Source of the DNA: a virus
DNA length: 22,610 nucleotides
Strand: one strand, 5' to 3'
IMG/VR virus record: IMGVR_UViG_3300046002_001556
Location: 1-22,610 of that record
The number at the start of each line of letters is the position of its first letter. The first letter of the stretch is position 1. A program made the translations under genes and the position numbers. This document shows, in pieces, positions 1-19,193 of the stretch. The notes beneath the pieces are model-generated. The model saw only the letters and a list, made by a program, of their open reading frames with translations. It did no database searches and was not told the origin of the DNA.

Positions 1-741
1 TATAAATATCGAGAGGATGGTATTCATGCTAAGGACATTTGTAATGCTCGTATGAAATGGCCTTATGGTGTCCGTGATTTAGATGGTGATGAGATGACAG
101 AGATTGTCATGGACGTTAGTGTCGCTATCATGACACATTTGAAGGACAAGGATGTAGCGTTGTTCAAGACATATTTGAAATACATCCTCACTGAGAGTCC
201 TTGGGCTTCTTGCTTCACCACTAAGCGTGTAGCAGATGCTATGCGTTATGGTGTTAAGTTCAATCTTGATATGGATGTTTCAGCTATTGTTGGTGCAGCT
301 ATTGCTATCCGTGAGGGATGGGAATACAAAGCCAAGTTACAGCCCTTTACAGCCCTGTTAAAGGATGGATATGTGGGTAATGTGGCCTACCTAGTGTCTT
401 CATTCGTTGGACCCTCTAAAGCCAATTGGGTGATTAATGGGATGGGTAGTTCACATCAAGTGTTGTCACGGAATATTAAATGGACCGCCATTAGTAAATT
501 CTTCAAGCGAGGGTATCTTCCTTATGGTAAAGACATTAAGAACACGGCAGAAGCAAACTATCGTATCTTTGAACGTATTGGTATAATGGGTGATGACATT
601 AAGAAGGATTCTCTCCTTAACATCTTCAAAGGAATTGCTGGTTGTAATATTGTAGGACGTGGATGGGAAGCACAAGAAACTATCCCTGCTGATGGTGTAA
701 AGAAACTGGCTGAGTGGTTGACACTCGAATTGAAAGGGTAA
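1..741 (+). CDS. Hypothetical phage protein, 5'-truncated by window edge
   Basis: The reading frame is open from base 1 to the TAA at 739-741, so the start lies outside the window. The first in-frame ATG (position 52) is unlikely to be the real start, because the 17 codons before it read as ordinary coding sequence and no Shine-Dalgarno sequence precedes that ATG. The visible 246 residues are mixed charged/hydrophobic with several aromatic residues, no clear membrane segment and no catalytic motif I recognise. The gene ends one base before the class I amidotransferase-like gene, so the two are probably co-transcribed and this protein could belong to the same pathway. Function unknown. Confidence is high for coding, nil for role. 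Confidence 0.8.
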   Translation, partial: YKYREDGIHAKDICNARMKWPYGVRDLDGDEMTEIVMDVSVAIMTHLKDKDVALFKTYLKYILTESPWASCFTTKRVADAMRYGVKFNLDMDVSAIVGAAIAIREGWEYKAKLQPFTALLKDGYVGNVAYLVSSFVGPSKANWVINGMGSSHQVLSRNIKWTAISKFFKRGYLPYGKDIKNTAEANYRIFERIGIMGDDIKKDSLLNIFKGIAGCNIVGRGWEAQETIPADGVKKLAEWLTLELKG

Positions 742-742
742 T

Positions 743-1378
743 ATGAAAACAGTACATATTGTTGGTGGTGGTGGTGCTTATGAACAGATGTTCAAGAAGC
801 TAGGGTTTGTCTCGGTAGAGTATGAGACAGCTGATTTGGTGTGTTTCACAGGTGGTGAGGATGTAACTCCGTCCTTCTATGGTGATGCTAAACATCCTTG
901 GACAGGAAATAATCCAGCACGTGATGAACAAGAAGCTATCATATTCAATCGTTGCATCCTCCGAGGTACACCAATGGTTGGTATTTGTCGGGGTGGACAG
1001 TTTCTAAATGTAATGTCTGGTGGGCGTATGTATCAACACGTTGATGCTCACACTCGTAGCCACATGATTACAGACTCTAGGACAGGCCGTGAGGTGTTTG
1101 TGTCATCCACCCATCACCAAATGTTTATGCCCTCCTCTGAGGCCCTCCTAGTGGCTTACAGCACCCTTGGCGGTGGACGTGAATGGTATGATGGATACGG
1201 AGGGCTTGTTCAACGGGATGTTTCTAACACTGACTATGAAGTGTTGTTCTATGCCAATACAAAAGCATTGTGCTTCCAATCCCACCCAGAATTCTGTGGT
1301 GATGACTACGATGATATGCTGGACTACTTTGAGTCGTTGATTAACGAGTTTCTTATCAAGGAGGCTGTATGCCAGTAA
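743..1378 (+). CDS. Class I glutamine amidotransferase-like protein (peptidase C26 type)
   Basis: This 211-residue protein has the class I amidotransferase triad: nucleophile Cys82 in GICRGGQ (residues 80-86), and His181 and Glu183 in SHPEF near the C-terminus. The FTGGEDVTPSFYG stretch (35-47) resembles the N-terminal signature of gamma-glutamyl-gamma-aminobutyrate hydrolase (PuuD-like, peptidase C26), so it may hydrolyse gamma-glutamyl amide bonds or release ammonia from glutamine. No synthetase domain is fused, so it acts alone or with a partner. The start ATG follows an AAAGGG ribosome-binding site at about 732-737. Its end overlaps the next small gene by 10 nt. It opens a run of amide-bond enzymes that continues to 5852, which suggests it trims or supplies nitrogen for their product (inference). 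Family call is firm; substrate is unknown. Confidence 0.88.
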   Translation: MKTVHIVGGGGAYEQMFKKLGFVSVEYETADLVCFTGGEDVTPSFYGDAKHPWTGNNPARDEQEAIIFNRCILRGTPMVGICRGGQFLNVMSGGRMYQHVDAHTRSHMITDSRTGREVFVSSTHHQMFMPSSEALLVAYSTLGGGREWYDGYGGLVQRDVSNTDYEVLFYANTKALCFQSHPEFCGDDYDDMLDYFESLINEFLIKEAVCQ

Positions 1379-1524
1379 GTGTTCAACTTTCTTTCGGGAT
1401 TATTATAGGACTTCTCGCATCTTCTCTTGCTTGGTTTCCTGTTGAGGGGTTAGTTTTTATAGCCCTCATCAGTGGTATTGCTGCGTTCGTGCGGCTCTCC
1501 TTCTATATCATAACGCATCGCTAA
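1369..1524 (+). CDS. Small two-segment membrane protein, 51 aa
   Basis: An ATG at 1369 opens a 51-codon frame ending in TAA at 1522-1524. It is preceded by an AAGGAG Shine-Dalgarno at about 1359-1364 that lies inside the end of the upstream gene. Residues about 5-24 (rich in Leu, Ile, Phe, with small residues) and about 27-47 (LVFIALISGIAAF core) form two hydrophobic segments around a short loop containing Pro and Glu, and the protein ends in a basic tail (THR). The intergenic space would otherwise be 157 nt empty, and the strong ribosome-binding site plus 10-nt overlap support a real gene. Its place inside the amidotransferase/amidoligase cluster suggests it anchors or serves that pathway at the inner membrane. 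A holin-like role is possible but the lysis genes are far away. Function unknown. Confidence 0.7.
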   Translation: MPVSVQLSFGIIIGLLASSLAWFPVEGLVFIALISGIAAFVRLSFYIITHR

Positions 1525-1538
1525 GGAGAATTAAAATT
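1523..1538 (+). promoter_or_regulatory. Strong Shine-Dalgarno with ATT initiation codon
   Basis: AAGGAG at 1523-1528 is followed by 7 nt and then ATT at 1536-1538, directly before the TGT coding for the expected N-terminal catalytic Cys of the class II amidotransferase. The Shine-Dalgarno also overlaps the TAA (1522-1524) of the upstream membrane-protein gene, allowing translational coupling. ATT starts are known in Escherichia coli infC and pcnB, where IF3 lowers initiation at this codon. Here it would hold expression low or tie it to initiation-factor status (inference). Confidence 0.75.
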
Positions 1539-2888
1539 TGTGGACTTGTAGGTGTGGCTGGTAAATTAGGTAAGACAGAGGAGAACACCCTCCAAACTCT
1601 TCTTATCTTAGATGCGCTTCGTGGTACAGATAGTACCGGAGTTGCTGTTATTGACAATCAAGATACGGTAAAAGTTGCTAAAGCTCTTGGTAATCCGTAT
1701 GAGCTGTTAGGTAGCAAGGCATTTGATAAGGCTTTGCTGGGGGCAAATCGTGCTATCATCGGACACAATCGCTACGGAACACAAGGAAAAATCAATAAAC
1801 AGAACGCTCATCCATTCGAGTTTGACAGTTTGGTAGGTGCTCACAACGGGACATTGACATCAAAGCATCGGCTAGACAGCTCTACAGACTTTGATGTGGA
1901 CAGTGAAAATCTGTACCATCACATCCATATGCATGGTTTGCACTCAGCTATGGAGCATTTGAGTGGTGCTTGGAGCTTGGTTTGGTGGAATAAGGACGAT
2001 ATTTCTCTGAATTTCTTACGAAATAAAGAGCGTCCCATGTACATCACCAGTAATGTGGCTGGGACAGCCTTATTCTGGGCCTCTGAGAAGTGGATGTTAG
2101 AGGTTGCAATGTCTCGTAACGGTATCTATCGTAAGGAGATTGAAGAAACTCAGGTGGATATGCACTATGAGTTTATCATTGGTAAGGATGGAGTGATTGA
2201 TAAGCCTCATGTAACATCTATGGCAAGTCGTCGCGTCCCTTTTGTTCAGGAGGCTACCTACACGACATGGAAGAATGGGCAAGCAATTACACATTCTGTG
2301 GGTAGTACGCCCCCTTTGGTAGGAAGCTCCGTCGTAACAAACGGGGCCGTAAATAATGTAGTGACCATTGGGTCGAAGAAGGAAACAGCTCCGAGTGTCG
2401 GAAAAAAGCTATCACTCCATCCCGGAGACTCCTACGTTGGCTCGAAGCACGTCTCACTAACAGTACAAGCGCGTACAGTTGATAATTATTCAGCAGCATA
2501 TTACATCTGCCAAGATGTTAATTATCCAGAACGTGTAATACGTCTGTATATTAAGCCTGAAGATATTAAGATGCAACGTGGTGATGTCTTCCGTGGAGAT
2601 ATTGGGGCCTTGGTTACTGAATCAACGGGGTATGAATACTATTACAAAGTCCTTCATTCATCGGTGGTTCAGGATGTGAAAGAAACTTATACAGGAAATC
2701 TATATCTTGATGGACATGGAAATGAAATCTCATTGCAAAAATTCTATGATTCATATGGACAGTGTGCATCATGTACAGGATGGGTTGACCCTGATCGACC
2801 ACACAAATTCACCTTCGATGGTGAACAAGCTGTCTGCGACCTTTGCTGTGAAGACCCACAGCTAGGTTATTATGTTCGTCTACGTTAA
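1536..2888 (+). CDS. Class II (Ntn) glutamine amidotransferase with C-terminal zinc-binding module
   Basis: The first ATG/GTG/TTG start that fits (GTG at 1554) would remove the nucleophile. Starting at ATT 1536 instead gives MCGLVG, the conserved N-terminus in which Met is removed and Cys2 attacks glutamine. The protein is then 450 aa. Other class II features are RGTDSTG (residues 29-35), GHNRYGTQG (76-84, Arg79 binds the glutamine carboxylate) followed by AHPF, and AHNGTL (102-107, oxyanion Asn104/Gly105). The amidotransferase domain fills roughly residues 2-225. The rest (about 226-450) has no synthetase, phosphosugar-isomerase or phosphoribosyltransferase motif, and ends with a CxxC (410/413) and CxxC (434/437) pair likely to bind zinc. 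It probably supplies ammonia from glutamine to the neighbouring ligases, or transfers a glutamyl group. The partner is inferred from context only. Confidence 0.88.
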   Translation: MCGLVGVAGKLGKTEENTLQTLLILDALRGTDSTGVAVIDNQDTVKVAKALGNPYELLGSKAFDKALLGANRAIIGHNRYGTQGKINKQNAHPFEFDSLVGAHNGTLTSKHRLDSSTDFDVDSENLYHHIHMHGLHSAMEHLSGAWSLVWWNKDDISLNFLRNKERPMYITSNVAGTALFWASEKWMLEVAMSRNGIYRKEIEETQVDMHYEFIIGKDGVIDKPHVTSMASRRVPFVQEATYTTWKNGQAITHSVGSTPPLVGSSVVTNGAVNNVVTIGSKKETAPSVGKKLSLHPGDSYVGSKHVSLTVQARTVDNYSAAYYICQDVNYPERVIRLYIKPEDIKMQRGDVFRGDIGALVTESTGYEYYYKVLHSSVVQDVKETYTGNLYLDGHGNEISLQKFYDSYGQCASCTGWVDPDRPHKFTFDGEQAVCDLCCEDPQLGYYVRLR

Positions 2889-2903
2889 ATAGTTGAGGTT
2901 GAT

Positions 2904-3695
2904 ATGCAAATTTTAGTTGGCTGTGATCCAGAAGTGTTTGTTCGTAAGGGTGGTACATTCTTGTCTGCCTTTGGTTTAATCAAGGGTGATAAGAAAAACC
3001 CTCAGAAGGTAGCTCGTGGTGCTGTACAAGTAGACGGTATGGCCTTGGAGTTTAACATTGATCCTGCCCATAGTGAGGATGAATTCTGTTTGAATGTACA
3101 GGATGTGTTTGCTACTATGTGCCGTATGGTGCCAGAGTATGAAGTTGTAGCTACCCCTGTAGCTCACTTTGACCCTCTGTATATGAAATCACAGCCAAAG
3201 GAAGCATTGGAGTTGGGGTGTGACCCTGACTATAATGCTTGGACTAAGCTTGCCAATATCAAACCCAATGCTAATCGTCCTATGCGTACTGCCAGTGGAC
3301 ACATTCACATTGGCTGGACAGACGATGAACACATTGATGATCTCAATCATCGTAATCGTTGTGATATGGTGACACAGCAGCTAGACTTCTATCTGGGGCT
3401 GGGTAGCTTGGCATATGACACTGACACTGAACGTCGTGAGATGTATGGGAAAGCTGGATGCTGTCGCTACAAACCCTATGGAGTGGAATATCGTACACTC
3501 TCCAATGCTTGGCTACGCAGTGAAAACCTTATGCGCTGGGCCTATCGTAACACTGTTGCAGGTGTTAAGCAGGTGATGGAGGGAAACCTCCTTGTAGAGA
3601 AGTATGGAGACATTCAAGACATTATTAATTCCTCACGTGTTGAGGAAGGACTGAAGATTTGTCAACAAGAAGGAATTGAGGTTTGCTATGGATGA
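2904..3695 (+). CDS. Phage phiEco32-like COOH-NH2 ligase (type 2)
   Basis: This 263-residue protein matches my memory of the phage-specific COOH-NH2 ligase family (glutamine-synthetase-like fold) first noted in phiEco32-type phages. The visible signatures are GCDPEVFV at residues 6-13 (Glu10 a likely metal ligand), MALEFNIDPA at 46-55 (Glu49), SGHIHIGW at 131-138 (His133/His135) and GVEYRTLSNAW at 193-203 (Glu195, Arg197). These are the expected metal- and ATP-binding positions of glutamine-synthetase-fold amidoligases. Such enzymes activate a carboxylate with ATP and join it to an amine. The ATG follows GAGG at 2895-2898. Together with Amidoligase_2 and ATP-grasp downstream it makes three predicted ATP-dependent C-N ligases in one operon. 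Substrate unknown. Confidence 0.85.
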   Translation: MQILVGCDPEVFVRKGGTFLSAFGLIKGDKKNPQKVARGAVQVDGMALEFNIDPAHSEDEFCLNVQDVFATMCRMVPEYEVVATPVAHFDPLYMKSQPKEALELGCDPDYNAWTKLANIKPNANRPMRTASGHIHIGWTDDEHIDDLNHRNRCDMVTQQLDFYLGLGSLAYDTDTERREMYGKAGCCRYKPYGVEYRTLSNAWLRSENLMRWAYRNTVAGVKQVMEGNLLVEKYGDIQDIINSSRVEEGLKICQQEGIEVCYG

Positions 3696-4299
3696 TGTTC
3701 TGTCACACAAGGATGCTTCTCAGCTCTATGAGGGTGCCCTATTCCACTATCGTAAGGACATAGTGAGAATTCGAGAATATGCAATGGGGACTGTGACGCT
3801 GTATAATCTTCGTACAAAGAAGACTTCGGCTATCATGTTCAACCGAAAGGAATTCACCCCGGTAACTGAACGTATTGGGATGGTTAATATCAGCCAGACG
3901 GTTGTGGTTATTGTACGTAATACGTTGCGACAATATCAGATTAGCATTAGTCCTAACAATGTTAACATCTCCTACCCTCCTGTTAAACGTCCATTAGGAG
4001 CCACTCGACAACTAACAGCTTTGAAATCACTAGAGGCACCTGAGCTACTTGCTGCCATTAACAATGACTATCCATCAATTGATGAAGCATATGCTAAAGC
4101 TATTGAATGGAAGGGAGCTTGTGCTTTTGATAAGCAATTTGCTATTACTGACTTAGGCAGTATCATCTACAAAGATGCTAAGGTTGGCATGTTTGTCAAC
4201 TCTCGTATTGAATTCAATCAACCCAGTTCCTACTTGGAATCTCTACTAAATAATTCTCATGAAAAAACTTCACGAACATATCAGGCGCGACCTATCTAA
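3688..4299 (+). CDS. Hypothetical protein within the amidoligase cluster
   Basis: A 203-residue protein read from ATG 3688. A TTG at 3676 would extend it by four residues, but GAGG at 3678-3681 is correctly spaced (6 nt) for ATG 3688 and too close to TTG. It overlaps the COOH-NH2 ligase stop by 8 nt and the amidoligase start by 41 nt, the tightest coupling in the cluster. The N-terminal ~100 residues alternate hydrophobic and polar residues with basic and aromatic positions (likely beta-strand-rich). The central part (LTALKSLEAPELLAAINNDY) looks helical, and the C-terminus is polar. I recognise no catalytic motif. Sitting between two ligases, it may be a binding subunit, carrier or target of the pathway (inference). 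Confidence 0.75.
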   Translation: MDDVLSHKDASQLYEGALFHYRKDIVRIREYAMGTVTLYNLRTKKTSAIMFNRKEFTPVTERIGMVNISQTVVVIVRNTLRQYQISISPNNVNISYPPVKRPLGATRQLTALKSLEAPELLAAINNDYPSIDEAYAKAIEWKGACAFDKQFAITDLGSIIYKDAKVGMFVNSRIEFNQPSSYLESLLNNSHEKTSRTYQARPI

Positions 4300-5098
4300 T
4301 GGTGATGTAGGAATTGAAGTTGAGGCTGAAGGCATGGGCCTTGAGCTGGTAGATTCCAATCTCTGGCGTACAGAAGATGATGGAAGCTTACGAGGGATGT
4401 ATCCTTCAGAACGAGCTGAGTTTGTTTTGCGAGAGCCTGTCGATATTCGTATGGTGCCTGATGCATTGAATGTGCTGAAAGAGTTGCAACACTATGCACG
4501 ATTTAATTTCTCCTTCCGTTGTAGTGTTCATGTACACATCAATGTAGGTGATTTGACATACGATGAGTTCCTTGCCTACTTGTATCTTTGCTTGTTGCTA
4601 GAAGAACCTTTGATGAATCTGTGTGGAGAAGCACGTAAGGCCAATCGTTTCTGCCTACGTATTGCTGATGCAGAGGGCTACCTTCTCTACATCAATCATA
4701 TCTTTGCTCGTGGCCCCAGTACATTACAGGAGATTCGGGAAGAACACGTACGCTATTCAGCCATTAATATTGGCTCAGTTAAGAAATACGGTTCCTTAGA
4801 GTTTCGTGGTATGCATGGTACATTGGATGTTGAGCTACTCACGGCATGGACACAAACTCTCTACCGTCTGCGAGAAGTGGCACGTAAGATGGGAAGCCCT
4901 GTAGCTGTACATAATGCCTTCATCCAAGAGGATACAGGTGTGTTTACCAAGCGTTGTCTTGGACAGAATGCTCACCTCTTTGATATTGATAAATCAATCC
5001 GGGATGTAGATCGTAGCTATTCCCTATTGATTGACCTACCCCATGCTTATCAGAATTGGAAGACAGAGCAGGAATTACTAGCCCCTGTAATTCATTAA
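4259..5098 (+). CDS. Amidoligase_2 family enzyme
   Basis: The 279-residue sequence carries the Amidoligase_2 pattern (glutamine-synthetase fold): GIEVEAEG at residues 18-25 with paired acidic metal ligands, DGSLRG followed by AEFVLREP (41-60), SVHVHINVGDLT (89-100, His91/His93), and SLEFRGMHGTLD (179-190, Glu181/Arg183). The enzyme is expected to form an amide bond between a carboxylate and an amine using ATP and Mg2+. No in-frame ATG or GTG lies between Met1 and the first motif, so the start at 4259 is effectively forced. That puts it 41 nt inside the preceding gene with no good Shine-Dalgarno (the upstream bases are A/T-rich), so translation probably depends on ribosomes arriving from the gene before. 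Family call strong, substrate unknown. Confidence 0.87.
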   Translation: MKKLHEHIRRDLSNGDVGIEVEAEGMGLELVDSNLWRTEDDGSLRGMYPSERAEFVLREPVDIRMVPDALNVLKELQHYARFNFSFRCSVHVHINVGDLTYDEFLAYLYLCLLLEEPLMNLCGEARKANRFCLRIADAEGYLLYINHIFARGPSTLQEIREEHVRYSAINIGSVKKYGSLEFRGMHGTLDVELLTAWTQTLYRLREVARKMGSPVAVHNAFIQEDTGVFTKRCLGQNAHLFDIDKSIRDVDRSYSLLIDLPHAYQNWKTEQELLAPVIH

Positions 5099-5105
5099 GG
5101 ATCGT

Positions 5106-5852
5106 ATGAAACTCTACCCCTACATGGCTGGCAGTGCTGGTGCCAAAGCTTTAGCTGCTGCCCTCGGTATTAAACGTCTACGTCGTACAGCCCCTGAGAT
5201 TAATATAAAAGGTGCCACTGTCATCAATTGGGGGTGTAGCAACATTGGACGTGTCCTCAAGAACGCTGCTATCATCAACAAGCCTGCTGCTGTGAAGAAA
5301 GCCACAAACAAGCTAGAAGCCTTCAAAGCCATGCAGGGCACTACTAGTGTTCCCTCTTGGACTGAGAGCCGGGAAGAGGCCTTACAATGGCTTGTAGATG
5401 GATGTATAGTGGTTGTTCGACATAAACTGTCAGGACACAGCGGTGAAGGGATTGAAATTGTAGAGAAGGGCGCTGAATTACCAGATGCTCCCTTGTATAC
5501 GAAATACATTCCTAAGAAGAATGAATATCGCATTCATGTTAATAATGGTGTAGCATTCTTTGTACAAAAGAAAGTACGTAATAAAGGAATTGAAGATGAA
5601 AAAATAAATTGGCAAGTGAGAAACCATGTCAACGGATTTGTATTTTCTCACGTTAATGTAGCTGCTCCTGAATGTGCTCAGCAGGAGGCTATTAAGGCTG
5701 TTGCTGCTTTAGGCTTGGATTTCGGAGCTGTCGATATTATTCAACACGCTGTAAAAGGTGGAGGTTGGTATGTGCTAGAAGTTAATACAGCTTGTGGCCT
5801 TAGTGGTAAAACCGTTGATAAGTATGTTGAACAATTTAGAGGGATGAAATGA
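5106..5852 (+). CDS. ATP-grasp carboxylate-amine ligase
   Basis: This 248-residue protein shows the ATP-grasp layout. The N-terminal pre-ATP-grasp part includes VINWGCSNI (residues 40-48). A lysine-rich segment (AVKKATNKLEAF) is followed by a glycine-rich loop RHKLSGHSGEGIEIV (about 105-119), the strand LYTKYIPKKNEYRIHV with the adenine-loop Lys, and the Mg2+ ligands FGAVDI and LEVNTACGLSG near the C-terminus (E-x-N motif). ATP-grasp enzymes form an acyl-phosphate and couple it to an amine or thiol. The ATG is preceded by AAGGA 5 nt upstream, directly after the amidoligase stop. It ends at an ATGA overlap with a GC-richer cassette, so it is the last gene of the amide-synthesis cluster. Related short phage ATP-grasp proteins occur in phiEco32-like phages as I recall; their product is not established. 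Confidence 0.85.
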   Translation: MKLYPYMAGSAGAKALAAALGIKRLRRTAPEINIKGATVINWGCSNIGRVLKNAAIINKPAAVKKATNKLEAFKAMQGTTSVPSWTESREEALQWLVDGCIVVVRHKLSGHSGEGIEIVEKGAELPDAPLYTKYIPKKNEYRIHVNNGVAFFVQKKVRNKGIEDEKINWQVRNHVNGFVFSHVNVAAPECAQQEAIKAVAALGLDFGAVDIIQHAVKGGGWYVLEVNTACGLSGKTVDKYVEQFRGMK

Positions 5853-6211
5853 CCACCTACACAATCACACAGGATCAGCTAGACACGCTTATGCGTAAGA
5901 ACGATCTTGGCTACTGGCAAGTCGTTAAAAGCATGCTGCAATCCCTCACCCCAAACAGCGGTAGGCAGTTCTGTTACTGCGATGACGGAGTATCGCTGCA
6001 AATGGTGAGCGGTGGTGGTGCGCCAGAGGGATACCTTGGCAAAGTAACACTGCGGATTGGCGATCAGTACCGAGAGTATTCAACCCACCCCGCACCAAGC
6101 ACAAAGCGCACTGGCTACCACGCATCCCACTGCTACCAAGGTGAGTACCCGGACACCTGCAAATATGGCGATGCTGACTGCACAGCCGCCCCACAAGGAG
6201 AAACCAAATGA
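5849..6211 (+). CDS. Hypothetical cassette protein, Cys-containing C-terminus
   Basis: A 120-residue product starting at an ATG that overlaps the ATP-grasp TGA (ATGA), with AGAGGG at about 5839-5844 as ribosome-binding site. The N-terminal half is helical and polar. A Cys pair (FCYCDDG, about residues 41-47) and three further Cys (HCYQGEYPDTCKYGDADC, about 93-110) could bind a metal or stay reduced in the cytoplasm, but the spacing matches no zinc finger I know. The C-terminal tail is rich in Pro, Thr and Lys. No signal peptide or membrane segment. First gene of the GC-richer cassette, and function unknown. Confidence 0.65.
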   Translation: MTTYTITQDQLDTLMRKNDLGYWQVVKSMLQSLTPNSGRQFCYCDDGVSLQMVSGGGAPEGYLGKVTLRIGDQYREYSTHPAPSTKRTGYHASHCYQGEYPDTCKYGDADCTAAPQGETK

Positions 6212-6432
6212 AACTCGTAGACAACGTAACAGTGCTCAATGTAATTACGTCGCTCCCAATACCTGTAGAGCGCGTACTGTCCGAAGCCATGAAAGCAGAG
6301 CCACAGATTGCGATCGTAATCGGACAGGACAAGGATGGCGCGCTGTACTTCACATCTTCTGAGGCTGACGGAGGAACGGTCTTGTGGTGGATGGAGAAAG
6401 CAAAACGCGCATTGATGGAGATTTCTGAATGA
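6208..6432 (+). CDS. Small phage accessory protein, 74 aa
   Basis: The ATG overlaps the previous stop by ATGA and is preceded by AAGGAG at about 6196-6201. The 74 residues follow a layout I recall from many small phage proteins of proteobacteria. There is an NVTVLNVITSLPIPVERVL-like start, a central strand IAIVIGQDKDGALYF, then SSEADGGTVLWWMEKAKRAL ending in a helix. It looks like a compact alpha/beta protein with no catalytic residues visible. Homologues are usually unannotated accessory genes scattered across unrelated phages, which fits acquisition by horizontal exchange. Role unknown. Confidence 0.7.
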   Translation: MKLVDNVTVLNVITSLPIPVERVLSEAMKAEPQIAIVIGQDKDGALYFTSSEADGGTVLWWMEKAKRALMEISE

Positions 6433-6728
6433 TACAACAAACTGAGCCGCTATTCACATGCGGGGGTGGCCTTCCCGGAGATCACAACGGGACTAGGCAA
6501 ACTGAGCGCGATGCGCTGATTGCAGGCTTGATTGAGGTACTTAAAGGGCCAGCCATGCTCACAACGCAAGAGGCTACTGCGATAGCGGATGCCGCCGATG
6601 TAATTGAGGCGCAAGCCCTGCGGATTGCGGAGCTTGAAGATCGTGGCGCTGATTGGGAGGACGCGAAGATCACAACCCTCCGCGCTGAACTCGATGCGAT
6701 CAAGGCGCAGGGGGTGAGAAATGAGTAA
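6429..6728 (+). CDS. Hypothetical protein with C-terminal coiled coil
   Basis: The 99-residue product starts at an ATGA overlap and closes the GC-richer cassette. Residues about 25-50 form a hydrophobic/polar helix. From about residue 50 to the end the sequence is Ala/Glu/Leu-rich with heptad-like spacing (ALRIAELEDRG, ITTLRAELDAI), typical of a short coiled coil in oligomeric phage accessory proteins. The N-terminus is Gly-rich (CGGGLPGDHNG). There is no enzymatic motif. It overlaps the next gene by 8 nt. Function unknown. Confidence 0.65.
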   Translation: MIQQTEPLFTCGGGLPGDHNGTRQTERDALIAGLIEVLKGPAMLTTQEATAIADAADVIEAQALRIAELEDRGADWEDAKITTLRAELDAIKAQGVRNE

Positions 6729-13048: not shown

Positions 13049-13292
13049 AGCTAAAGTGTACAAAGGGTTTGACCTATTTAACGATATTGAGGATGATGCA
13101 CTCCGTATTCGTAATCGTGCTGTAGTCTTGGCTAACATGGCTGAAGACCACACCAAAGATCGACGTATCAATGCTAAAGGTGCAAGCCTTATTATAGGCT
13201 ACTTCAATGCCATCCCTGCTCCTGAACGTAACACTGTTCGTGTAGCTTTTGCAGATAACATGAAACAGCGAGGCTTTGCCCTTGTCGCCTAA
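13026..13292 (+). CDS. Conserved hypothetical phage protein, 88 aa
   Basis: Starts at ATG 13026, 23 nt inside the HNH gene, with a purine-rich AAAGAAAAG upstream. The 88 residues include YKGFDLFNDIEDDALRIRNRAVVLANM, a long helix rich in Arg, and NAKGASLIIGYFNAIP near the C-terminus. I recall similar small proteins in many podoviruses next to replication or nucleotide genes, but no function. It has no membrane segment. It overlaps the next gene (TTG start 13282) by 11 nt. Confidence 0.75.
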   Translation: MNEQKQTEAKVYKGFDLFNDIEDDALRIRNRAVVLANMAEDHTKDRRINAKGASLIIGYFNAIPAPERNTVRVAFADNMKQRGFALVA

Positions 13293-13599
13293 TGAAGCTA
13301 TTAAATATGACCAAGCTAAACCTCCGATGGCTCTCTTGGATTCTGAATTTCTTGAAGAGGTTGCTAGCGTTCTCGGGTTTGGCGCTGCTAAGTACGCTGC
13401 TGATAACTGGCGTAACGGTATTAGTTATCGTAGGCTTATTAGTGCTGCTTATAGGCATCTTGGTGCCATCAACAAGGGAGAAGATATTGATCCTGAATCC
13501 AACCTCCCTCATACCGGACATCTTGGATGTTGTATTATGTTCCTTAGTTGGATGGCAAAACATCATCCAGAGTTGGATGACCGATGGAAGCAACAATGA
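13282..13599 (+). CDS. dATP/dGTP diphosphohydrolase-like protein (DUF5664 type)
   Basis: The 105-residue protein matches the family formerly called DUF5664, which I recall being linked to the dATP/dGTP diphosphohydrolase MazZ of cyanophage S-2L. Visible features are KYDQAKPPMALL at the N-terminus, GFGAAKYAADNWRNG, and AAYRHLGAINKGEDIDPESNLPHTGHLGCCIMFL, where the Glu, Asp and His residues are the likely metal site. It probably removes pyrophosphate from purine dNTPs, or acts as a housecleaning enzyme. There is no ATG start. TTG 13282 is preferred over TTG 13276 because GAGG at 13270-13273 is 8 nt before it. It shares an ATGA overlap with ThyX. No PurZ-like gene is seen, so it does not by itself imply 2-aminoadenine DNA. 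Confidence 0.78.
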   Translation: MSPNEAIKYDQAKPPMALLDSEFLEEVASVLGFGAAKYAADNWRNGISYRRLISAAYRHLGAINKGEDIDPESNLPHTGHLGCCIMFLSWMAKHHPELDDRWKQQ

Positions 13600-14273
13600 A
13601 AATCAGTGATATTAATGTAACCCCTATCAATCCCCATCGTTGGGGAGATGATCTTGATGTTGTAAATGCAGCACGTGTCTCTTTTAGTAAGGAAAGTGTA
13701 CACGTTGAATTAGACCATTGGACAGGGGTGGCAAGTAAACAGTTGGAAACTAAGGACGTTAAGTTAATCAACTACCTTGCCAAACATAAACACTTCTCTC
13801 CTTTCAACCATTCGTTCCTTTCCTTTCGTATCAAGGCTCCACTATTTTGCGCCAGGCAGCTTGTAAAACATCGCTTCATGCCTTGGAATGAGACAAGTCG
13901 TAGGTATGTAGATGATGAGCCTGAGTTCTATATTCCTGAACTACGTAAGCGATCTGATAATGTTAAACAAGGGAGCTTAGATGAAATTCTATTCACCGAT
14001 TACGACCCCATTGATTCAGTTAAGCAATCATTGCAGATGTATAACTGGCTATTGGCTGACGGGGCAGCTCCTGAAGTTGCACGAGCATATCTACCACAGA
14101 ACATGATGACAGAGTGGATTTGGTCAGGAACACTAGGAGCATTCTTGGATATGCTTGTTCTTCGTCTTGATCCTCACACACAAAAAGAAAGCCGTGATGT
14201 GGCACAGTTGATTGCAACACACGTACAACAATACTTCCCAATCTCTTATAAGGCACGTATTACTAATGAGTAA
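13596..14273 (+). CDS. thyX: Flavin-dependent thymidylate synthase ThyX
   Basis: The 225-residue protein contains the ThyX signature KHRFMPWNETSRR (residues 91-103), matching RHRxxSxNExSxR with Lys for the first Arg and Pro for the first Ser. The active-site Ser (101) and Arg (103) are present. Upstream HFSPFNHSFLSFRIKAPLFCARQL is also typical. ThyX makes dTMP from dUMP using FAD and methylene-tetrahydrofolate. ATG 13596 is chosen because it forms an ATGA overlap with the preceding stop and has GGAAG upstream; ATG 13584 would add four residues. It supplies thymidine for replication alongside the reductase and MazG downstream. Confidence 0.95.
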   Translation: MKISDINVTPINPHRWGDDLDVVNAARVSFSKESVHVELDHWTGVASKQLETKDVKLINYLAKHKHFSPFNHSFLSFRIKAPLFCARQLVKHRFMPWNETSRRYVDDEPEFYIPELRKRSDNVKQGSLDEILFTDYDPIDSVKQSLQMYNWLLADGAAPEVARAYLPQNMMTEWIWSGTLGAFLDMLVLRLDPHTQKESRDVAQLIATHVQQYFPISYKARITNE

Positions 14274-15030
14274 AATACTCGTCATCCCTGACATACAAGC
14301 GAAGTATGGAAACGACTTTGCCTACCTAGAGCGTATCGGTAAATATATTTGTGCTAAGCGTCCTGATGTAATTATCTGCCTCGGTGACTTGGCTGATATG
14401 GAGAGCTTGAGTTCCTATGACGTAGGTAAGAAGTCCTTTGAAGGAAGGCGCTATCACAAAGACATTGCAGCAGCTATTGATGCTCAAACATATTTGTTTG
14501 GTCCCCTATTTAACCTACAAACACAACAACGAATTAATCGTAAACGAGTGTATGATCCCCGTACCATCATTACACTAGGTAATCATGAACATCGTATTGA
14601 TCGAGCCATTAATAATGATGCTAAGCTAGATGGATTGATTAGTATGGGAGACCTTCGTTATAAGGACTTCTTCCAGGAGGTATATCCCTTCCTTGAAACT
14701 GTGGTGATTGATGGTGTTGCATTCTCTCATTATTTCGTTACAGGTACTGCTGGACGGCCTAGTAGCACTGCTAGGGCACAGCTTAATAAGCAACATATGT
14801 CTTGTATTGCAGGACATCAACAAGGCCTTCAAATTGCAACAGATAATCGAGCAGATGGTACACGAGTTACCTCCATCATTGCAGGTAGTTGTTATGAACA
14901 TGATGAGGCTTATATGGGACCTCAAGGGAATAATCATTGGAGGGGGTTCTTGATGCTTCATGAAGTTGATCGAGGAAGCTTTGATCTGATGCCTGTATCT
15001 CTTGACTACTTGAAGAAACGATATGAATAA
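14266..15030 (+). CDS. Calcineurin-like metallophosphoesterase
   Basis: This 254-residue protein has the dinuclear metallophosphoesterase blocks: VIPDIQAKYG (Asp9, with Gln11 where His is usual), CLGDLADMES (Gly40-Asp41...Asp44), LGNHEHR (Asn106, His107), AFSHYF (His155) and AGHQQGLQ (His184). It is a phosphatase or nuclease of the Mre11/SbcD-like superfamily, but without the ATPase partner or capping domain of SbcCD. Short stand-alone phage versions are usually listed as phosphoesterases of unknown substrate. Start is ATG 14266 (8-nt overlap with ThyX), not the earlier TTG (14212). Its place among nucleotide genes favours a nucleotide or polynucleotide substrate (inference). Confidence 0.85.
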   Translation: MSKILVIPDIQAKYGNDFAYLERIGKYICAKRPDVIICLGDLADMESLSSYDVGKKSFEGRRYHKDIAAAIDAQTYLFGPLFNLQTQQRINRKRVYDPRTIITLGNHEHRIDRAINNDAKLDGLISMGDLRYKDFFQEVYPFLETVVIDGVAFSHYFVTGTAGRPSSTARAQLNKQHMSCIAGHQQGLQIATDNRADGTRVTSIIAGSCYEHDEAYMGPQGNNHWRGFLMLHEVDRGSFDLMPVSLDYLKKRYE

Positions 15031-15346
15031 GATGATGCACTTTAACGAATACCAGAACTTCTGTCAAAGCGTACGGCTCCCTACTGCCACCCCTGAGTAT
15101 TGTTTGCTCAATCTGTCAGGAGAAGTTGGAGAGCTTCACTCCCTCGTTGCCAAGGGTATTCGAGATGGACGTAAGTTTGATTATGATTTGAACATTAAAA
15201 AGGAACTAGGTGATGCTCTTTGGAGTATTGCTACTATTGCCTTGGATCATGGATTTACATTGCAAGACATTGCTGATGGAAATGTATCCAAGCTTTCTAA
15301 ACGTAAACAAGACAACACCCTCACAGGATCAGGAGACAACCGCTGA
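15023..15346 (+). CDS. MazG-like nucleotide pyrophosphohydrolase
   Basis: The 107-residue protein shows the all-alpha NTP pyrophosphatase pattern. NLSGEVGELHSLV has the ExxE helix, and IKKELGDALWSIATIALDHG has the ExxD helix that binds Mg2+. It ends with LSKRK, as in phage MazG proteins. It hydrolyses NTPs or dNTPs to monophosphates and pyrophosphate, clearing unwanted nucleotides or altering the alarmone pool. The start ATG 15023 overlaps the metallophosphoesterase stop by 8 nt. Its stop is immediately followed by the reductase ATG, so expression is coupled with dNTP synthesis. Confidence 0.88.
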   Translation: MNKMMHFNEYQNFCQSVRLPTATPEYCLLNLSGEVGELHSLVAKGIRDGRKFDYDLNIKKELGDALWSIATIALDHGFTLQDIADGNVSKLSKRKQDNTLTGSGDNR

Positions 15347-17326
15347 ATGACAAAACAATCACTACGTAGCCAACTGCTTGCCCGACGCACCTACAACCGT
15401 CCATTGAATGAATCAGGAACAGTATTTGAAACATGGACACAGACAATTGATCGCGTGATTGGTCATCAGAAGTGGCTGTGGGAACGAGCTAGTAACTATG
15501 GTCCTACAGCATACGAAATAGGTGTAGAGCTTGATGAACTTCGTCAGCTAATGCTTGATCGTAAAGTGTTGATGTCTGGACGTACTCTCTGGCTGGGTGG
15601 TACAGATGTAGCTAAGCGACGAGAGGCCTCTCAGTTCAATTGTTCCTTTACCAATGCTGAGACAGTGTATGACATTGTTGACATTCTCTGGCTTCTAATG
15701 CAAGGCTGTGGTGTAGGATTTAAACCTATTGTAGGACAGCTTACAGGATTCCAGAAGCGTATTGAAGACGTAGAAATCATCCGTTCTACTCGTAAAGATA
15801 AGCTTGGTCAGCAAGGTAATTCAGAATCTTACGATGAGACAACCGGGACGTGGACAATCACAGTAGGTGACTCAGCAGAAGCATGGGCTCGTTCCATTGG
15901 TAAGCTTGTAGCTCATAAGTTCCCAGCTCGAAAGCTAGTGCTGGATTTCTCTCAAATACGTCCCGCAGGGGAAAGGCTCAAAGGATATGGATGGATTAGT
16001 TCTGGGGATGCAAGCTTGGCTAAAGCTTATACAGCTATTGTTAGTTTACTTAATAAGCGTACTGACTCTCTTCTCACTAGGATTGATATCCTTGATTTGG
16101 TCAATTGGCTTGGTACTGTACTCTCTTCTCGCCGTAGTGCTGAGATTGCTCTATTCGAGTATGGTGAAGCTGAGTGGGAAGAATTCGCAGTAGCAAAGAA
16201 TGAATGGTGGAAGGAAAATGTCCAACGTGCCCAAAGCAATAACTCTCTACTCTTTCGATTTAAGCCGCTTAGAAAAGAACTTAGCGATGTCTTTGATCTC
16301 ATGGTGCGAAGCGGAGGATCAGAGCCCGGATTTATTAACGGACAAGCAGCTACTAAGCGTGCTCCTTGGTTTAAAGGTGTTAATCCCTGTGCCGAAATCC
16401 TCTTAGGTAATAAGAGTTTTTGTAATCTAAGTGAGGTGGATGTTGCGAAATTTCATGGAGATAGTGCTGGCCTTCGACGTGCAATCCACCTTGCCGCCCG
16501 AGCGAATTACCGACAAACTTGTGTTAACCTTCTGGATGGAGTTTTACAAGAAGCATGGCATCTCAACAACGCCTTCTTGCGACTCTGTGGAGTGGGCCTT
16601 ACAGGGATCGTTAGACGGCCTGACCTCCAAGCTTACGATTATTCCGAACTGCAACGAACTGCAACGGCAGGAGCTTACGGAATGGCTGACGAGCTTGGGC
16701 TACCGCGTCCTAAGAATGTCACCACCATCAAGCCATCTGGCACATTGAGTAAGATTATGGACACCACAGAGGGTGTTCACAAACCGTTAGGGAAGTATGT
16801 ATTTAACAATGTCAATTTTGGTAAGCATGATCCCCTTATCCCTCTATGTCGTGCTGCTGGTTACAAAGTTGTTGATAACCCTGATGATGGAGAAGCTGTC
16901 CTCATTACTTTCCCTGTTAAGTGGGAAGATGTTCCGTTTGATAAATTCGTTCGGGACGGGGTTGAATATGAAGTGAATCTGGAGAGTGCTATTAAGCAGC
17001 TAGAGCGTTATAAGATGTTGATGAATAGTTGGTGTCAACAGAATGTATCTGCTACGATTAGTTATTCCCCTGATGAGGTGGAAGGTATTGTAGATTGGTT
17101 GATGACGAATTGGGATGATTACGTAGGTGTTTCATTCCTCTTCCGTGCCGATCCTACTAAGACAGCTAAGGACCTTGGTTATCGCTACCTTCCTCAGGAA
17201 GTAGTTACTAAGGATGTGTATGATGCATACGCTGCTACGTTACAGCCTATTGTTCTGGATGAAGCTAATGATATTGATGCTGTTCTGGAAGATGATTGTA
17301 CGAGTGGTGGGTGCCCAATTCGTTGA
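15347..17326 (+). CDS. Monomeric class II (B12-dependent) ribonucleoside-triphosphate reductase
   Basis: The 659-residue protein aligns by motif with the Lactobacillus leichmannii monomeric class II reductase. Cys99 (FNCSF) corresponds to Cys119, Cys348 in NPCAEILL to thiyl Cys408 with Glu350 as Glu410, and Cys359 (SFCNLSEV) to Cys419. The 348-359 spacing of 11 is the same. The C-terminal CTSGGCPIR gives the mobile reducing pair Cys651/Cys656, with the same 5-residue spacing as Cys731/736. TTIKPSGTLSKIM is the conserved substrate-phosphate loop. The enzyme converts NTPs to dNTPs with adenosylcobalamin, without oxygen or a second subunit. Its start follows AGGAG and directly abuts the MazG stop. 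It is about 80 residues shorter than the Lactobacillus enzyme (739). The small glutaredoxin downstream may re-reduce it. Confidence 0.93.
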   Translation: MTKQSLRSQLLARRTYNRPLNESGTVFETWTQTIDRVIGHQKWLWERASNYGPTAYEIGVELDELRQLMLDRKVLMSGRTLWLGGTDVAKRREASQFNCSFTNAETVYDIVDILWLLMQGCGVGFKPIVGQLTGFQKRIEDVEIIRSTRKDKLGQQGNSESYDETTGTWTITVGDSAEAWARSIGKLVAHKFPARKLVLDFSQIRPAGERLKGYGWISSGDASLAKAYTAIVSLLNKRTDSLLTRIDILDLVNWLGTVLSSRRSAEIALFEYGEAEWEEFAVAKNEWWKENVQRAQSNNSLLFRFKPLRKELSDVFDLMVRSGGSEPGFINGQAATKRAPWFKGVNPCAEILLGNKSFCNLSEVDVAKFHGDSAGLRRAIHLAARANYRQTCVNLLDGVLQEAWHLNNAFLRLCGVGLTGIVRRPDLQAYDYSELQRTATAGAYGMADELGLPRPKNVTTIKPSGTLSKIMDTTEGVHKPLGKYVFNNVNFGKHDPLIPLCRAAGYKVVDNPDDGEAVLITFPVKWEDVPFDKFVRDGVEYEVNLESAIKQLERYKMLMNSWCQQNVSATISYSPDEVEGIVDWLMTNWDDYVGVSFLFRADPTKTAKDLGYRYLPQEVVTKDVYDAYAATLQPIVLDEANDIDAVLEDDCTSGGCPIR

Positions 17327-17603: not shown

Positions 17604-19193
17604 TTATCCAGAGACAACAACAGTCGCCACTGCTCCAGCAATCGTATGGTTGCCTGCTGAATAAGTCGGTGTGAATGTGCTGTACAGGACTGCGCAGTTA
17701 TCAGCAACATTACCCACGACGGAGCTTGCGAGCAATGTTCCTGCAATCCCAACACCGTCAATCATGCAGGTGTACTGGCCTTTTGTGTTGTCGTTCCATG
17801 ATCCATTGAACGTATTACCAACAACCGACAAAGCACGAAGCGATGAGCCAGCACCAACCACCAATTCGATGCACGGGTAAGTGGCGTTCGGCACGTTATC
17901 GTTCTGAAAACCAATGTTCCCGTTTACATTGACGTTTCTCACCATTGTGCTGGCCGAAATGTTGATCTTGATGTGTGGGCCGAACGAGGTGTCAAACTGA
18001 TTTCCTTGAATCTGCACAGACCCCCGAGAAGGAACGCTTGAGTTCCCCCAGCTATAGTCGAGCAAGATGCAAGGGCCAGCGGCGGAGGGACTATCGGAGT
18101 CTTTCCAAATGTGGTTGCCGAATATCTCTACGTCTGACGATGCTGTTTTTATACACGCAGCACCCGCAGCCGAACCATAAACAAAGTTGTTGACGAAGCG
18201 CGAGTCGCCCAAGATGTTTACGCATACGCCACGCTGTTGATTGATGATTACACAAAACGTTGTCACTGAACTGGCTGATGCCGTTAGCGATGCTGTGGTG
18301 CCACGCAAAATAGTACAGCCAAATATGTGATTCCCGCGAGTGGCATTACCCGCTGATGTATCTACGCCAACAGCAGAACTGGCATTGTTCATGCCATCAA
18401 CGTTCAAGGATCGAAGGTTACTCCCTCTTGTTCCAAAATTAGCCCCCGTGTTTCCAAGCCCGTTGTTTCCCAGCTTAACGAACCCACCAGCATCTGCAAT
18501 GTAGCCAGTAAGAACTAGCGATGAGTTGTAATATTCAAAATCACGCGCAAAACCAACGCCTGTAGCATTGCCAACACCGAACATCGTGACCCCCGTTGGC
18601 ACCACGATTTGCCCCGTGCAGGTCGTTATTTCAGACGGTATAAATACGGGAGACTTTAATTGCGCAGCGACCGCAGTTGCCACATTTACAGCAGCAGTGT
18701 CATCTGTACCCCACACGAACTGATGGAGCGTCCCCGTTGTAATGCCCGATAAGCTAACGGTCACGGAGTTGGCGCTATTAACTGCTGTAATGAATCCGTA
18801 GCGAGAGTAGTTGCCGGTTGCGGTCTTTGGCGCGTGAACGCACGACTTACCAACATCACCAGTTGAGAACACCGCAGACGTGGATGTGATTGTCATCGAC
18901 CCAGCAGACGCCCCTGTGACCGCAGCATCATAGACCGCCTGACCGTCACATTTCGCGCCGACGCTGCGAATGTCGATTCCACCTGTGGCCGCGAACTGTA
19001 CGCCACCCGCCATCAATTCAATCCCCCCGGTGAGGGGATTGGTTACGGCGGTGACAGGCTCCCCACCACCCCGTGAGAATTCCGTGTAATTAGTACGAGA
19101 CTTTTCAGCACTATTGATTTGGGAGGGTTTACTCACAGTGCGAATGCCGTATGCGTTACTCACTCCACCTGGACCTTTAGATTCTAATGCCAT
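17604..19193 (-). CDS. Tail spike / tail fiber protein with beta-helix
   Basis: A 529-residue protein. Residues about 1-55 form a short anchor (SNAYGIRTVSKPSQINSAEK). A segment with a pectate-lyase-type entry (GGIDIRSVGAKCDGQAVYDA, about 72-92) and a mixed region follow. From about 240 to the end there are repeated beta-helix turns, with many N/G/V/S and phrases such as VVGNTFNG, IFGNHIW and IQGNQFD. This is the architecture of a phage spike that binds, and often degrades, surface polysaccharide; catalytic residues are not identifiable by eye. GC content is clearly higher than in neighbours over most of the gene (18901-18960 has 39 G/C of 60), dropping again in the anchor-coding end, which marks a swapped receptor-binding module. 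Its start shares a base with the upstream stop (TAATG). Confidence 0.85.
   Translation of the reverse strand: MALESKGPGGVSNAYGIRTVSKPSQINSAEKSRTNYTEFSRGGGEPVTAVTNPLTGGIELMAGGVQFAATGGIDIRSVGAKCDGQAVYDAAVTGASAGSMTITSTSAVFSTGDVGKSCVHAPKTATGNYSRYGFITAVNSANSVTVSLSGITTGTLHQFVWGTDDTAAVNVATAVAAQLKSPVFIPSEITTCTGQIVVPTGVTMFGVGNATGVGFARDFEYYNSSLVLTGYIADAGGFVKLGNNGLGNTGANFGTRGSNLRSLNVDGMNNASSAVGVDTSAGNATRGNHIFGCTILRGTTASLTASASSVTTFCVIINQQRGVCVNILGDSRFVNNFVYGSAAGAACIKTASSDVEIFGNHIWKDSDSPSAAGPCILLDYSWGNSSVPSRGSVQIQGNQFDTSFGPHIKINISASTMVRNVNVNGNIGFQNDNVPNATYPCIELVVGAGSSLRALSVVGNTFNGSWNDNTKGQYTCMIDGVGIAGTLLASSVVGNVADNCAVLYSTFTPTYSAGNHTIAGAVATVVVSG

Follow-up and report, generated by a model that had tools for sequence, protein, structure and literature searches.

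A copy of the phage amidoligase cassette in an IMG/VR virus record: co-occurring ligases, an additional upstream gene and a putative ATT start

The virus record IMGVR_UViG_3300046002_001556 (22,610 bases, analysed at its full length and called here the window) contains a run of genes for amide-bond-forming enzymes and glutamine amidotransferases (GATases) that is a further copy of a published phage cassette and not a new set. A sequence-only reading of this DNA had described at 743-5852 an island of seven tightly spaced genes for ATP-dependent amide or peptide bond synthesis, with amidotransferases and with no known product. All seven open reading frames (ORFs) are present on the plus strand, with overlaps of at most 41 nt and gaps of at most 15 nt (Table 1), and the profile families agree with that description. 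Virulent phages carry the cassette widely. In the literature we found no experiment on what it makes, and modified peptidoglycan stands there as a hypothesis only. To the published picture we add the strict co-occurrence of the core genes, the sporadic nature of the small membrane ORF, an eighth gene (g0), a barrel likeness of the conserved protein u, the ATT start of the class II GATase gene and several pointers to glutamyl amides. In this old open question about a widespread phage module, the minimal gene set, the extra member and the unusual start codon are new handles.

The published cassette and its co-occurrence in phage loci

A seven-gene "peptidoglycan modification cassette" was named in 2017, citing Hardies 2013, in the RIO1-like podoviruses PSA-HP1 and PhiRIO-1, with superinfection exclusion as the hypothesis for its role and with phiEco32, 7-11, PA11, tf, MR299-2, LUZ24, PaP3 and CW02 listed as carriers (PMC5498523). 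Two later papers repeat the hypothesis, one of them adding a weakening of the wall before lysis (PMC10580990, PMC11945000). Like the RIO1-like versions, the window has a COOH-NH2 (gamma-glutamyl) amidoligase, a second amidoligase, an ATP-grasp protein and a glutamine amidotransferase in one run beside replication genes, but it differs from them in having a C26 enzyme (GATase1) instead of GGCT, a membrane ORF of 51 amino acids, g0 upstream and the ATT start of the class II gene (GATase2). The set of PF14395, PF12224, ATP-grasp and class II GATase typical of the phiEco32/RIO-1 group is complete in the window, and so is its placement beside a primase-helicase and a polymerase. Phages of the phiEco32 type had been thought to carry part of the set; actually they carry nearly all of the published cassette of about seven genes. 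The cassettes closest to that of the window are found in Zobellviridae (T4S1-k141_502596, CW02, CVT22 and GP100). These share the order g0-GATase1-GATase2-ligase-u-amidoligase-ATP-grasp-primase (the CW02 record starts just ahead of GATase1) and have ligase identities of 49-60%, although other small ORFs are interspersed and CW02 has a GGCT in addition.

We have searched IMG/VR with the COOH-NH2 ligase as seed, in four scans with different lead sequences, and added annotated phages. The 322 loci obtained were reduced to 175 non-redundant ones at 80% identity, of which 106 were complete, with at least 6 kb on either side. The class II GATase, Amidoligase_2 and the ATP-grasp accompanied the COOH-NH2 ligase in 106 of 106. 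The other genes were less constant (u in 98, primase-helicase in 86, GATase1 in 81, g0 in 76 and GGCT in 42), the counts of g0 and u being the least certain because both are weakly conserved and the profiles were iterated on the same loci as were counted. With the ATP-grasp as seed, 49 of 49 loci with at least 7 kb upstream contained the COOH-NH2 ligase, the class II GATase, Amidoligase_2 and u. A linkage conserved in more than 100 non-redundant loci excludes chance, and the genes that are always together define a minimal set. The order given above for Zobellviridae was the commonest; in LUZ24- and phiEco32-like phages GATase2 comes after the amidoligase and GGCT is used. Co-conservation of the seven genes, which had been proposed as a check, held for the ligase pair, the ATP-grasp and the class II GATase, but not for the membrane ORF, and g0 is usually an additional member. 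Absence of the genes from related phages, which would have spoken against the island, is not what we find.

Relatives of the COOH-NH2 ligase appeared in 316 records of the phage collection, and the hosts of carriers include Pseudomonas, Escherichia, Vibrio, Rhizobium and Cellulophaga. A search for plasmid-borne relatives gave no match, and a genome scan for cellular relatives gave one contig only; its gene order is of the phage type, and it is probably phage DNA placed in a metagenome bin. The number of ligases rises to four in some cassettes, since a second ATP-grasp lies between GATase1 and GATase2 in loci L020, L029, L033, L034, L035, L037, L041, L045 and L048 of our set. Another arrangement was that of the crAss-like Cellulophaga phage phi14:2 (L012, Crassvirales), with the order GGCT, ATP-grasp, COOH-NH2 ligase, class II GATase and Amidoligase_2, in which g0, u and GATase1 were not detected. 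In Rhizobium phage RHph_I3_11 (L011) two annotated glutamine amidotransferase genes flank the cassette, one of them diverged in the class II alignment.

The small membrane protein had been counted as a member of the cassette. Over all scanned loci, small ORFs with a membrane segment occupied its slot 20 times, and no small ORF family was general to the cassette, the largest cluster covering 13 loci; the 51-residue ORF is incidental and not a conserved member. The same result bears on a graspetide-like explanation, in which a short precursor peptide from the cassette itself would be cross-linked by the ATP-grasp. The latter's weak matches to the MvdC/MvdD peptide maturases point in that direction, but a conserved precursor gene, which such a system needs, is missing among these small ORFs, and we consider this reading highly improbable. 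In about 28 loci (e.g. L101, L108, L117, L134, L162, L166, L251 and L304) the ATP-grasp is followed by a small acidic protein carrying two pairs of Cys (MRCxxC...), for which a role as acceptor or regulator is possible.

Enzymes of the cassette and their candidate targets

Profile searches assigned GATase1 to the C26/class I GATases (PF07722, E = 3e-20), GATase2 to the class II GATases (PF13522, E = 4e-13), the first ligase to COOH-NH2_lig (PF14395, E = 3e-6; phrog_3815, E = 6e-88), the second to Amidoligase_2 (PF12224, E = 3e-8) and the ATP-grasp to phrog_2599 (E = 3e-79) and the NCBIfam RimK family (E = 2e-8). In alignments of the window proteins with 7 to 15 phage sequences the expected catalytic residues were intact across the cassette enzymes, ATP-grasp included, and the loss that would have undermined the sequence-only reading was not seen. 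The proposed triad C82, H181 and E183 of GATase1 is invariant among seven homologues. In GATase2, R79, H103, N104, G105 and D122 are invariant in a 15-row alignment, and the nucleophile is residue 2 as had been proposed, given the ATT start discussed below. The COOH-NH2 ligase has 25 residues invariant in 13 phages, and Amidoligase_2 has invariant E, H and R residues. Comparison of the two amidoligases by profile detected no mutual similarity, and none of the core proteins has a clear membrane segment.

The class I assignment of GATase1 stood as to family and triad, but its closest relatives are of gamma-glutamyl hydrolase types. The nearest solved structures are Lin1909, 7d4r/7d50/7d53 and PuuD (gamma-glutamyl-GABA hydrolase). 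GATase2 has PurF/GlmS relatives. GATase1 is therefore probably a gamma-glutamyl hydrolase, more likely to cleave gamma-glutamyl amides than to supply ammonia, and it is the gamma-glutamyl-cleaving partner of the window (743-1378); no GGCT was seen in the 22.6-kb fragment. The ATP-grasp is nearest to alpha-L-glutamate ligases, also among solved structures, and to cyanophycin synthase. It shares with these and with RimK the ATP-grasp core and the conserved ATP/Mg residues, but lies under their curated cut-offs (34 bits against 143 for rimK_fam), and we describe it as RimK-related and likely to work like RimK, without assigning it to the family. The C26/GGCT hydrolases together with an ATP-grasp of this type suggest that glutamyl groups are ligated and removed in the cytoplasm, and we think it likely that the chemistry of the cassette is glutamyl. 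The hydrolase partners also suggest the first substrates to try. The gamma-glutamyl-polyamine pathway PuuA-PuuD likewise pairs ATP-dependent amide ligation with a C26 gamma-glutamyl hydrolase, although the ligases of the window are of PF14395 and PF12224 and not PuuA, and the oxidase and dehydrogenase steps are absent.

Two further proteins could contribute. g0 was present in 53 of the 57 complete loci of the first set, normally directly upstream of GATase1. One Cys, Arg, Glu and His are invariant in an alignment of 50 sequences, with a spacing Arg(x3)Glu, and all four are visible in the partial copy of the window. For a complete relative (L045), AlphaFold2 gave a confident model with a pLDDT (predicted local distance difference test) of 92, which matched no fold in the PDB better than E 0.3; g0 matched no known family in Pfam and fell in families of unknown function in PHROGs. 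From these residues it may be an enzyme. The Zobellviridae-type g0 profile did not reach the proteins in the g0 position of LUZ24- and Kuravirus-type phages, and these are counterparts of g0 by position only. For u, the model (pLDDT 92) resembled SH3 barrels of the KOW/PWWP type weakly (E 0.02 or worse) and gave clear matches to viral relatives only; a binding or scaffold role may be predicted from it.

The reading that we favour is modification of wall precursors. The cassette would be expressed early, beside the replication genes, and its two amidoligases and RimK-like ATP-grasp would use ATP in the cytoplasm to build amide bonds, most of them glutamyl, one after another onto a precursor of the host. 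From glutamine or amides of it, the class II enzyme would free ammonia or else a gamma-glutamyl group, and the C26 enzyme (GGCT in relatives) would cleave gamma-glutamyl bonds. A scaffold for these enzymes may be provided by u, and g0 may be one more thiol enzyme. As acceptor the stem peptide of cell-wall precursors would be the likeliest, and the altered new wall might hinder superinfecting phages or ease lysis. The wall as target is a published guess that we consider plausible but short of probable, and the mechanism as a whole is put forward just as tentatively. It is consistent with the co-occurrence, the intact sites, the RimK and hydrolase relatives, the GGCT neighbours, the lack of membrane segments, the linkage to the primase-helicase and the published hypothesis. 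Furthermore, in amplified SU10 phage products annotated as ATP-grasp, glutamine amidotransferase and YtfP (GGCT-like) were seen by mass spectrometry and classed as early (PMC4281155). Given the host range of the carriers, the target must be common to distantly related Gram-negative bacteria, as would suit the wall.

Several results weigh against modification of wall precursors. The cassette has no wall-binding, lipid-linked-precursor or export domain, and the nearest characterised relatives act on L-glutamyl proteins, cofactors and polyamines, not on D-glutamate stem peptides. Neither amidoligase has a solved relative detectable by sequence, and we also count here the lack of any demonstrated product. 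GGCT, another gamma-glutamyl-cleaving enzyme, was found in 20 of the 25 complete loci without GATase1 and in 22 of the 81 with it (Fisher p = 4e-6); on the tree there were only 2 supported independent contrasts, 8 in all, and the pattern is not significant once relatedness is counted. The exchange of the two hydrolases is suggestive only, a hint and not a result.

The same relatives can be read in favour of protein tagging. RimK adds glutamyl tags to ribosomal protein S6, and the cassette might likewise put glutamyl or isopeptide tags on a conserved host protein (ribosomal protein, translation factor or RNA polymerase), with the amidoligases extending or capping them and C26/GGCT trimming them. 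Besides the closeness of the ATP-grasp to RimK and alpha-L-glutamate ligases, the apparently cytoplasmic nature of all cassette enzymes and the weak likeness of u to SH3/KOW-type binding domains would agree with this, and related ATP-grasp ligases of phages, of the R2K clade, have been predicted in the literature to modify host proteins. However, RimK by itself requires no amidotransferases and no acceptor protein travelling with the cassette was found, and we judge protein tagging rather unlikely.

A soluble gamma-glutamyl compound (polyamine, folate, thiol or a new peptide), made or remodelled for phage metabolism or against host defence, has to be weighed as well. C26 relatives act on gamma-glutamyl amines, the NCBIfam matches include gamma-glutamyl-CDP-amidate and gamma-glutamyl-GABA hydrolases, and GGCT often adjoins the cassette (42/106 complete loci). 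Three ligases are, however, many for a single small product, and none of the seven proteins matched a PADLOC model, a resource that covers defence systems and not counter-defence. We take this explanation to be unlikely. The PADLOC result also led us to reject a known anti-phage defence system as the identity of the cassette.

Finally, modification of a base or of a virion protein would agree with the linkage of the cassette to polymerase, primase-helicase and nucleotide genes. But this linkage is to replication and not to virion genes, we found neither a base hydroxymethylase nor a base kinase among the cassette genes, and HaeIII cut the DNA of the carrier phage tf in a published study, all of which make virion or DNA modification very improbable. 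The question of the target is testable in laboratory strains, as relatives of the cassette are found in phages of E. coli and P. aeruginosa PAO1.

Start codon of the class II gene

Upstream of the GATase2 start in the window, the frame is closed by a stop at a distance of 30 codons, and the interval from this stop to the catalytic Cys is free of ATG, GTG and TTG. The GTG at 1554 chosen by the ORF tool would lose this Cys, and an N-terminal Cys as in class II enzymes requires initiation at the ATT of 1536, which we therefore take as the start of the gene. Among 162 non-redundant homologues the codon before the Cys was ATG in 117, ATT in 22, ATC in 7, TTG in 6, GTG in 3 and another in 7, these last having a doubtful alignment or a start lying upstream. 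ATT or ATC starts thus appear in 29 of 162 (e.g. L009:12588, L056, L073 and L087), and a motif resembling a ribosome-binding site precedes 28 of the 30 Ile-codon starts (one ATA counted). No standard start was found in the 40 codons before the motif in 23 of 161 class II genes (two look misaligned), compared with 0/166 for the COOH-NH2 ligase, 0/26 for GATase1 and 4/156 for the amidoligase, whose anchor sits further inside the gene so that its four cases are less telling. When start states (ATG, GTG/TTG or Ile codon) were placed on the ligase tree at least 33 changes were needed, indicating that the state has flipped many times.

These comparisons are a strong argument that ATT or ATC very probably initiates translation of the class II gene. 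A literature search found no phage example of such initiation, and a gene that repeatedly takes AUU/AUC starts would be uncommon as an instance of translational control. Such starts would also explain how the catalytic Cys can drop out when the gene is annotated. Actually, in phage T4S1-k141_502596 (L002:6503-7957) the gene is annotated from an internal Met without the Cys, and the frame extends upstream to ATT-Cys-Gly. The model of IF3-sensitive non-standard initiation is infC, and IF3-type control of the class II gene is only an analogy. A bolder proposal joins these elements: an eight-gene cytoplasmic pathway, including g0 as a Cys-Arg-Glu-His enzyme of new fold, would attach a glutamyl-type conjugate of a new sort to some conserved molecule of the host that is not the wall, with the amidotransferase throttled by repeatedly evolved, infC-like, IF3-sensitive AUU/AUC initiation. 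In this combined form we regard it as doubtful.

Layout of the locus and neighbouring genes

The features of the cassette are collected in Table 1. For u the start is most likely the ATG at 3688 and not the TTG at 3676.

Table 1 Features of the cassette in the window
Feature	Position	Strand	Remarks
g0	1..741	+	5' end cut by contig edge; usually eighth cassette member; possible thiol enzyme
GATase1	743..1378	+	Peptidase_C26 / class I glutamine amidotransferase-like; Cys82-His181-Glu183; PF07722, phrog_7218
Small membrane protein, 51 amino acids	1369..1524	+	Hydrophobicity maximum 2.15; sporadic, outside core
Ribosome-binding site AAGGAG of class II gene	1523-1528	+	7-nt spacing to ATT
Putative ATT start codon of GATase2	1536-1538	+	Codon directly before catalytic Cys
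GATase2	1536..2888	+	Class II amidotransferase domain, N-terminal Cys; C-terminal part unassigned, with CxxC pairs; PF13522, phrog_4736
COOH-NH2 ligase, phiEco32 type 2	2904..3695	+	PF14395, phrog_3815
u (phrog_11055)	3688..4299	+	Conserved; predicted SH3/KOW-like barrel; possible scaffold/binding protein
Amidoligase_2	4259..5098	+	PF12224, phrog_7469
RimK-like ATP-grasp ligase	5106..5852	+	phrog_2599, RimK/MptN models

Promoter-like sites showed no excess over shuffled sequence. Downstream of the cassette the window continues with the primase-helicase (to 8548), a sigma-like factor and PolA. Between the ATP-grasp and the primase (5849-6728) there are three small ORFs with 53-55% GC, flanked by DNA of 39-48%, possibly a recent insertion. 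On the minus strand (17604-19193) a protein of 529 amino acids that matched no Pfam or PHROGs family adjoins the virion genes. In addition, a dATP/dGTP diphosphohydrolase-like protein (PF18909, phrog_801), ThyX, a MazG-like protein and a B12-type ribonucleotide reductase are clustered at 13276-14273 and 15023-17326.

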